Source: Anaerolineae bacterium
GTDB lineage: Bacteria > Chloroflexota > Anaerolineae > Caldilineales > Caldilineaceae
Length of the DNA: 64,000 nt
Assembly: GCA_030432295.1 (NCBI GenBank)
Contig: JAUIHI010000005.1
Location: 124,001-188,000 of the forward strand
Direction of reading: 5' to 3'
In this document: positions 57,013 to 57,976 of the stretch, one piece after another
Position numbering within the stretch: the first letter of the stretch is position 1
How the letters are laid out: each line of letters starts with the position of its first letter
The notes under the pieces: model-generated
What the model saw: only the letters and a program-made list of their open reading frames with translations
Database searches by the model: none
What the model was told of the DNA's origin: nothing
Made by a program: the position numbers and the translations under genes

Positions 57013-57927
57013 TCACCCTGCGGCCAGAAGTTCCAGCGCTGCCAGTAGGGTGCGGCGCTGGGTCTCCCCATCACCGGCCCGACCCAATGGACGTCCCATC
57101 CAGAAGGGCGTCGTCAGCAGCCGGGGCACACGCATGGCCTCCAGCCGTTCCCGGAAGGTATCGGCAGCGATGATGACCGTCCCAATCCCCGCCTCTTCTG
57201 CCACCCGCGCAACGTGCCCCACGGACACGTGACAGACCGGTCAGACAGGGACCAGAACTGCGCCGTCGATCCCCGCTGCTTTCCACATCGCCACCCACTG
57301 GGGCGCGGTCCGTTTGGTCAGGGGTGTCTGGGCACACGCGCCCACAAAGGAATAGGCCGTCGGGTGCAGGCTGCCGATGACCCCTTCTGCGGCAAGGCTG
57401 ACCAGATGATCTGTCGGGAAAGCCACATTGTGATCCGCCAGCACGCCCCGCACATCGTAGCCGCCGTGACGGGCGCGCAAGCGGTCGTGGGGCGTCTCCA
57501 CGGGAATCTCGGAAAGCGTTGGCTGCTCTTTCAGAAAGTCGTCGATACGCCGGGCCGCTTCCTCCTGGCTCATATTGTCGATGCCAAAGGGCTTGGGATC
57601 GTCCCCTTCCACAAAGTGGCCGGTGGAGGTGATGAGTGTAATTTTGGCCGCAGATAGGGGTTTGCCCAGGGGCGTGCGTGGGCCGTCGTCGTAGACCCAG
57701 AGGGTCGGCCCCGCGTAGTTCTGCGCCTGCCCGGCCTGCATGTGCGCAATGATCGGGGACCAGTCGTTGCTGTCGTAGGCGTCGCCCAATTTCCAAAAAA
57801 GCTGTTGAACAAAATCGGCCGCTTCTTCCTCGCTCAGCCCTTTGAGGAATTTGAAGTTGAGGTCGTTGCGGCTGCCGTAGGAAAAGGAGTTCTTGAAATC
57901 GACAAAGGATTCAGGTTCTTCGGACAT
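57013..57927 (-). CDS. Probable selenoprotein, glycine/sarcosine/betaine reductase B (GrdB)-like family
   Basis: 304 residues with one in-frame TGA read as Sec at codon 229 (57243-57241). AGGAG five bases before the ATG at 57927. Before the TGA the frame runs 228 codons (for example GFNFKFLKGLSEEEAADFVQQL-like opening, FVGACAQTPLTKRTAP, GIDGAVLVPV). After it the frame continues 75 codons with uniform coding character: PVCHVSVGHVARVAEEAGIGTVIIAAD. Codons around the TGA give V-P-V-U-P-V-C, a UxxC redox motif where other family members carry Cys or Sec. A SECIS-like hairpin begins ten bases later. Function is probably a redox reductase; substrate unknown. Alternative: inactivated gene. Sec insertion needs selA/B/C/D elsewhere in the genome. 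Confidence 0.78.
57212..57230 (-). promoter_or_regulatory. SECIS-like hairpin downstream of the UGA
   Basis: On the mRNA: arm ACGUGUC (57230-57224), loop CGUGG (57223-57219), arm GGCACGU (57218-57212), seven pairs including one G-U. It starts ten bases after the UGA, placing the loop 17 bases from it, with a G in the second loop position, the geometry of bacterial SECIS elements. Confidence 0.6.
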
Positions 57928-57946
57928 GAGGACTCCTGTTAAATGA

Positions 57947-57976
57947 AATAGCGCTACCCAGTTGGGTAGCGCTATT
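57947..57976. terminator. Terminator between the TspO-like gene and the selenoprotein gene
   Basis: 14-base arms AATAGCGCTACCCA and TGGGTAGCGCTATT with a two-base loop, 19 bases upstream of the selenoprotein ATG. On the minus strand it ends in U/A-rich sequence and separates the two transcripts or sets their ratio. Confidence 0.6.

Follow-up and report, generated by a model that had tools for sequence, protein, structure and literature searches.

The PrdB and GrdB proteins that have been studied act together with a partner from the pyruvoyl-subunit family PF09338, namely PrdA for PrdB and GrdE for GrdB. GrdB (PF07355) is the selenocysteine (Sec)-containing subunit B of the glycine, sarcosine and betaine reductases; its pairing with GrdE has been described (PMC10838667), and PrdB and GrdB are listed among the known selenoprotein families (PMC13188914). 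Selenoproteins with a UxxC motif that were named proline reductase PrdB rank with the most abundant selenoproteins of surface-ocean metagenomes, with 42 and 235 sequences in the Sargasso Sea and GOS surveys, in which we found no discussion of a missing PrdA partner (PMC1088965, PMC2398784). Here we describe a gene from a 64-kb window, by which we mean the whole stretch of 64,000 nucleotides that was analyzed, from the genome of an Anaerolineae bacterium (Table 1). The gene is a further member of this already known selenoprotein family, and its PrdA-less setting is the interesting part.

Table 1. Positions of the features of the selenoprotein gene, numbered within the window.
Feature	Position	Strand	Basis
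PrdB/GrdB-like selenoprotein CDS, 304 aa, predicted Sec at residue 229	57013..57927	-	profile matches and homologues
In-frame TGA, predicted Sec229 (UPVC, UxxC motif)	57241..57243	-	TGA or Cys in homologue column; TGA in annotated PrdB
Cys232, partner of Sec229 in the UxxC redox pair	57232..57234	-	at least 90% conservation among 50 relatives
Predicted bacterial SECIS-like hairpin, 8-bp stem ACGUGUCC/GGGCACGU	57212..57230	-	excess pairing in Sec forms only, and covariation
Shine-Dalgarno AGGAG, 5 nt 5' of the ATG	57933..57937	-	sequence
Extension at the N terminus (approximately residues 7-71), predicted helical; marks one all-Sec clade	57715..57909	-	tree and structure model

Reading frame of the gene

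The minus strand of the window carries a frame of 304 codons that runs from the ATG to a terminal TGA at 57015-57013 and contains a single internal TGA, at codon 229, within the residues V-P-V-TGA-P-V-C; re-reading the letters gave what the original prediction had claimed. The start at this ATG is supported by the AGGAG sequence upstream of it. The claim that coding character continues on both sides of the TGA agreed with two further results. The G+C content at codon positions 1, 2 and 3 was 0.64, 0.44 and 0.74 on the 5' side of the TGA and 0.77, 0.55 and 0.73 on the 3' side, and the substitutions 3' of the TGA among five close homologues fell mostly at third positions (162, 136 and 331 at positions 1, 2 and 3), so that the composition fits coding sequence both before and after the TGA. 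We did not take the open frame alone as proof of Sec, because 32 stop codons in the window (10 of them TGA; the window is 60% G+C) are likewise preceded by at least 200 and followed by at least 70 open codons in the same frame, which makes such a frame weak evidence by itself. What makes the observation significant is the homologues, together with the hairpin and the Sec machinery.

The TGA column in relatives

When 86 relatives were aligned, the codon at this column was TGA in 66 and a Cys codon in the remaining 20 (TGC in 15 and TGT in 5), and no other codon was found. Four full-length homologues share 58-63% identity with the window protein. Its own genome encodes two paralogues, which are 61% and 36% identical to it where they match and which both have a single TGA at this position. 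Relatives were present in 12 of 150 genomes surveyed from the class, with exactly one TGA in every match, and PrdB-like proteins, mostly Sec forms, were present in 103 of the 400 genomes sampled from the phylum. The annotated PrdBs of Terrisporobacter, Enterococcus gilvus and Peptoclostridium likewise have TGA as the aligned codon, as does a PrdB homologue from Acetoanaerobium, where the record is unannotated, and the codon is TGC in Haematobacter and Roseomonas. Among the 86 aligned relatives, Cys forms were found in three of our families (f69, f61 and f87) and in two Alphaproteobacteria, and within f61 and f87 they are intermixed with Sec forms in the tree, as would be expected of Sec/Cys exchange. 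At the level of sequence comparison, the homologues show that the TGA of codon 229 lies where the PrdB/GrdB family carries its Sec.

Some variation of the motif was seen among these proteins. One relative (L075) has TGA at both motif positions (UPIU) and possibly carries two Sec residues, and two others (L083 and L089) retain the TGA with the second Cys shifted or lost (UPHIC and UPRDH).

Selenocysteine machinery and SECIS-like hairpin

The genome encodes SelA, a SelB of 640 aa, a tRNA-Sec with the anticodon TCA, located on a contig other than that of the window, and a SelD with an in-frame TGA (ACAGUASKLPPG; L011 1228-2595), which is thus itself predicted to contain Sec. Rfam and tRNA scans of the 64-kb window found nothing. 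In a survey of 80 genomes, all 47 genomes with a Sec form had SelB and/or tRNA-Sec over the cut-off; among the 16 genomes whose examined copy was a Cys form, 13 had SelB/tRNA-Sec and three, all from f61, had neither. The f69 genomes (6.6-13.7 Mb; e.g. L058, L060 and L062) have Cys forms and have kept both SelB and tRNA-Sec, indicating that a Cys form needs no loss of the machinery.

Just 3' of the UGA, the transcript of the window gene has the order CCGGUCUGUC-ACGUGUCC-GUG-GGGCACGU, in which the GUG (57222-57220) forms the loop of a hairpin at a distance of 18 nt from the UGA. The stem was picked after inspecting the folds of ten sequences from the Sec set, so these ten are not independent, and the Cys set and a recoding null, in which each sequence was rewritten with synonymous codons taken from its own gene (1000 trials), served as controls for this choice. 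The 62 distinct Sec forms had 7.13 of the 8 stem pairs compared to 5.15 +/- 0.12 after synonymous recoding, a value reached in none of the 1000 trials, whereas the 18 Cys forms had 4.44 of 8 compared to 4.59 under recoding. With relatives above 65% identity removed, the Sec set had 7.0 pairs compared to 5.11 in the null. Among 24 Sec sequences, hand-picked for diversity from the 62, the covariation score was 0.405 compared to 0.120 for shuffled data, and the pairing fell from 92% to 44% or less once the partner was shifted by a single column. The folding energy of the window hairpin alone was unremarkable (z -1.06), and this measure was dropped as weak evidence in favor of the recoding and covariation tests. 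These comparisons show selection beyond the protein code on a predicted SECIS-type hairpin in the Sec forms and not in the Cys forms.

The reading of this TGA as Sec was therefore supported by the checks that accompanied the original prediction: selA, selB, selC and selD were all found when the genome was searched for them, and the alignment had Cys or TGA without exception at the place where the UxxC motif had been proposed, so that neither a lack of selB/selC nor an unrelated residue or gap, both of which were looked for as evidence against Sec, was encountered. A pseudogene or sequencing error, with a true or artefactual stop and a decaying downstream frame, would be in keeping with the frequency of open frames around stops in this GC-rich window, but it is scarcely credible given a column that is only ever TGA or Cys, a part 3' of the TGA that evolves as coding sequence, and a hairpin under selection. 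Reassignment of TGA occurs in some lineages, and a TGA read as another amino acid (Trp via a reassigned code, or near-cognate read-through) would follow that precedent; here it appears next to impossible, since the homologues have Cys and never Trp, the gene's own terminator is TGA, the Sec machinery is complete in the genome, and the hairpin is kept in the TGA forms only.

Relationship to PrdB and GrdB

The Pfam profile GRDB (PF07355) matched residues 88-226 (E 2.5e-11) with 43.9 bits, above its gathering score of 22. The best NCBIfam match was PrdB (TIGR04483; E 1.7e-23, residues 85-294), at 83.4 bits compared to an equivalog cut-off of 300, followed by lower scores for the GrdB model TIGR01917 (E 3.4e-10; 39.4 bits compared to a cut-off of 602) and for TIGR01918 (42.9 compared to 65). 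By these profiles the window protein is nearer PrdB than GrdB, and it lies below every NCBIfam cut-off. The description of the protein as a GrdB-like reductase consequently held for the PF07355 superfamily, while PrdB replaces GrdB as the nearer relative; the word reductase should not be taken to mean a working glycine or D-proline reductase, as the PrdA/GrdE partner was not found in the genome. Searches of the PDB by sequence and by fold yielded no usable match, and with Foldseek no relative of known structure reached E <= 0.001.

Of the 347 positions in the PF07355 profile, the last one matched is 345, directly before the Sec column, which means that the profile does not extend as far as the active site. 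The same profile matches the window protein and four relatives (L003, L054, L029 and L093) only to 1-3 residues before the Sec column. From its end point, it looks as if the profile had been built from proteins cut at the TGA.

The window protein resembles PrdB in its best curated match and in having UxxC at the same column, where three annotated PrdBs have TGA. It differs from PrdB in an N-terminal extension of about 65 residues, in its score far below the cut-off, and in that no PrdA was found. The PrdBs of Terrisporobacter, E. gilvus and Peptoclostridium have UGTC where the window protein has UPVC, and their SECIS stem is not the same (4-5 of the 8 pairs). With GrdB it shares the UxxC motif and the PF07355 match, but it lacks about the first 220 of the 347 GRDB profile positions and has no GrdE-type partner. 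The alphaproteobacterial proteins annotated as glycine/sarcosine/betaine reductase selenoprotein B family protein (Haematobacter and Roseomonas; homologue in Chelatococcus) are homologous and have CxxC at the same column; unlike the window protein, they have Cys for Sec, and the stem is not kept (4-5 of the 8 pairs). The marine PrdB selenoproteins, which the surveys name proline reductase, are UxxC members of the same superfamily, a likeness that we draw from the surveys' description rather than from sequence (PMC1088965, PMC2398784).

The tree groups the window protein and its 61% paralogue with six relatives in a clade (support 100/99) in which all members are Sec forms and share the extra N-terminal segment, which is predicted to be helical.

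Partner subunit and respiration

We found no PF09338 protein, and hence neither the PrdA proprotein of D-proline reductase nor the GrdE of glycine, sarcosine and betaine reductase, in the 6.7-Mb genome, which is a draft of 61 contigs, making the absence strong rather than absolute. The same search was positive in 9 of the 400 genomes sampled from the phylum, and in these, frames of GrdB length mostly adjoin PF09338. Among the 103 of these 400 genomes that have PrdB-like proteins, at most nine have a PrdA/GrdE partner. The genome of the window also encodes subunit I of a heme-copper oxygen reductase, so this bacterium probably respires oxygen.

These results bear on whether the protein could serve as PrdB in a genuine D-proline reductase, or as GrdB in a glycine, betaine or sarcosine reductase, with its partner elsewhere in the genome. 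PrdB being the best NCBIfam match and the Sec column being common to annotated PrdBs would both agree with such a role. However, the search that found no PF09338 works in this phylum, the PrdB score falls well under its cut-off, the oxygen-reductase subunit is present, and the gene has no prdA or prdC neighbor, in contrast to Terrisporobacter and E. gilvus, in which prdB follows prdC and prdA. We consider this role very improbable. On a plasmid of Peptoclostridium acidaminophilum, an annotated prdB (L169 3926-4639) has no prdA or prdC within about 4 kb. The reading that we prefer, a Sec-containing protein of the PrdB type that stands alone and is independent of PrdA, is predicted with high confidence.

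Neighboring genes

Upstream of the window gene is a TspO-like match under its cut-off (21.2 compared to 24 bits), and downstream is a polysaccharide deacetylase; neither recurs at the homologous loci inspected. No redox gene adjoins the window gene, and no conserved neighborhood was seen for its own clade among the loci inspected. Between the upstream gene and the start lies an inverted repeat whose 14-bp arms, AATAGCGCTACCCA and TGGGTAGCGCTATT, match perfectly and are 2 nt apart (window 57947-57976); it overlaps a sigma-70-like promoter (58002-57974; 10 of 12 matches). The repeat could terminate the upstream gene or serve as an operator; an operator shared with other loci was rejected, as no copy was found at the other loci fetched.

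Elsewhere in the family, clustering of neighbors placed an AhpC/TSA peroxiredoxin near 12 of 69 loci, and in six of these, from families f61, f81 and f87 and including both Sec and Cys forms, it lies within 300 bp upstream in the same direction. A 1-Cys peroxiredoxin lies just downstream of the PrdB-like gene in Chelatococcus, and a thioredoxin lies just upstream at three near-identical f74 loci. Loci with a peroxiredoxin or thioredoxin beside a PrdB-like gene include L133, L160, L124, L136, L164, L125, L026 (6943-7677), L118, L119 and L163. The peroxiredoxin neighborhood is mostly a feature of one other clade, which makes it a weak guide to the clade of the window protein. In Roseomonas haemaphysalidis, the Cys-form PrdB-like gene (L172 3887-4795) adjoins a gene for a SelO protein adenylyltransferase.

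Predicted fold and proposed mechanism

A confident AlphaFold2 model (pLDDT 90.4, pTM 0.88) places Sec229 in a loop between a strand (222-226) and a helix (230-245), a strand-loop-helix arrangement that is the common geometry of redox CxxC motifs. In 50 relatives, D165, P171, U229, G247, R269 and G282 never vary, and near-invariance was seen for C232, H154, R241 and E244. We propose that SelB and Sec-tRNA(UCA) would bind the hairpin and insert Sec229, giving one 304-residue protein instead of a 228-residue fragment. From the motif and the predicted fold, Sec229, at the start of the helix that follows the strand, would be paired with Cys232 as a selenol/thiol redox couple. The Sec would attack an electrophilic substrate, Cys232 would resolve the product as a selenenylsulfide, and a thioredoxin-type donor would then reduce the Sec/Cys pair. 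Since no pyruvoyl subunit of the PrdA/GrdE type was found, the protein should not act as a D-proline or glycine reductase, and it is most likely a stand-alone UxxC selenol-thiol oxidoreductase. Because several relatives adjoin peroxiredoxin or thioredoxin genes, our best guess for its role is a reductase tied to peroxide or thiol metabolism, which we put forward tentatively, as a possibility a little short of even.

A stand-alone selenoenzyme could also carry out reductive dehalogenation or deamination, with an activated carbon-halogen or carbon-heteroatom bond as its target, instead of being linked to peroxides or disulfides. UxxC chemistry is compatible with this, and there is a proposal that FarB, a GrdB-like selenoprotein, breaks the C-F bond of fluoroacetate through attack by a selenolate; however, in that proposal FarB works with FarE, which is GrdE-like (PMC10838667), a type of subunit that is absent here, and the neighbors of the window gene, the weak TspO-like match and the polysaccharide deacetylase, suggest no such pathway. 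We regard this substrate class as unlikely, but as one to be kept in mind.

Significance

Overall, the locus holds a well-supported selenoprotein gene of the kind that stop-codon-based gene calling splits at the active site, and it raises the question of what a "D-proline reductase" selenosubunit does when its catalytic partner is missing and the bacterium is apparently able to respire oxygen. The extended clade, and more widely the short forms without PrdA, may represent a selenoenzyme family of its own in oxygen-respiring bacteria, one that dispenses with the pyruvoyl subunit and perhaps reduces peroxides or electrophiles in a thioredoxin-linked manner, a proposal for which we see the chances as evenly balanced. 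If it is true, the label "proline reductase PrdB" that such proteins carry in oxic marine metagenomes would be a misassignment.
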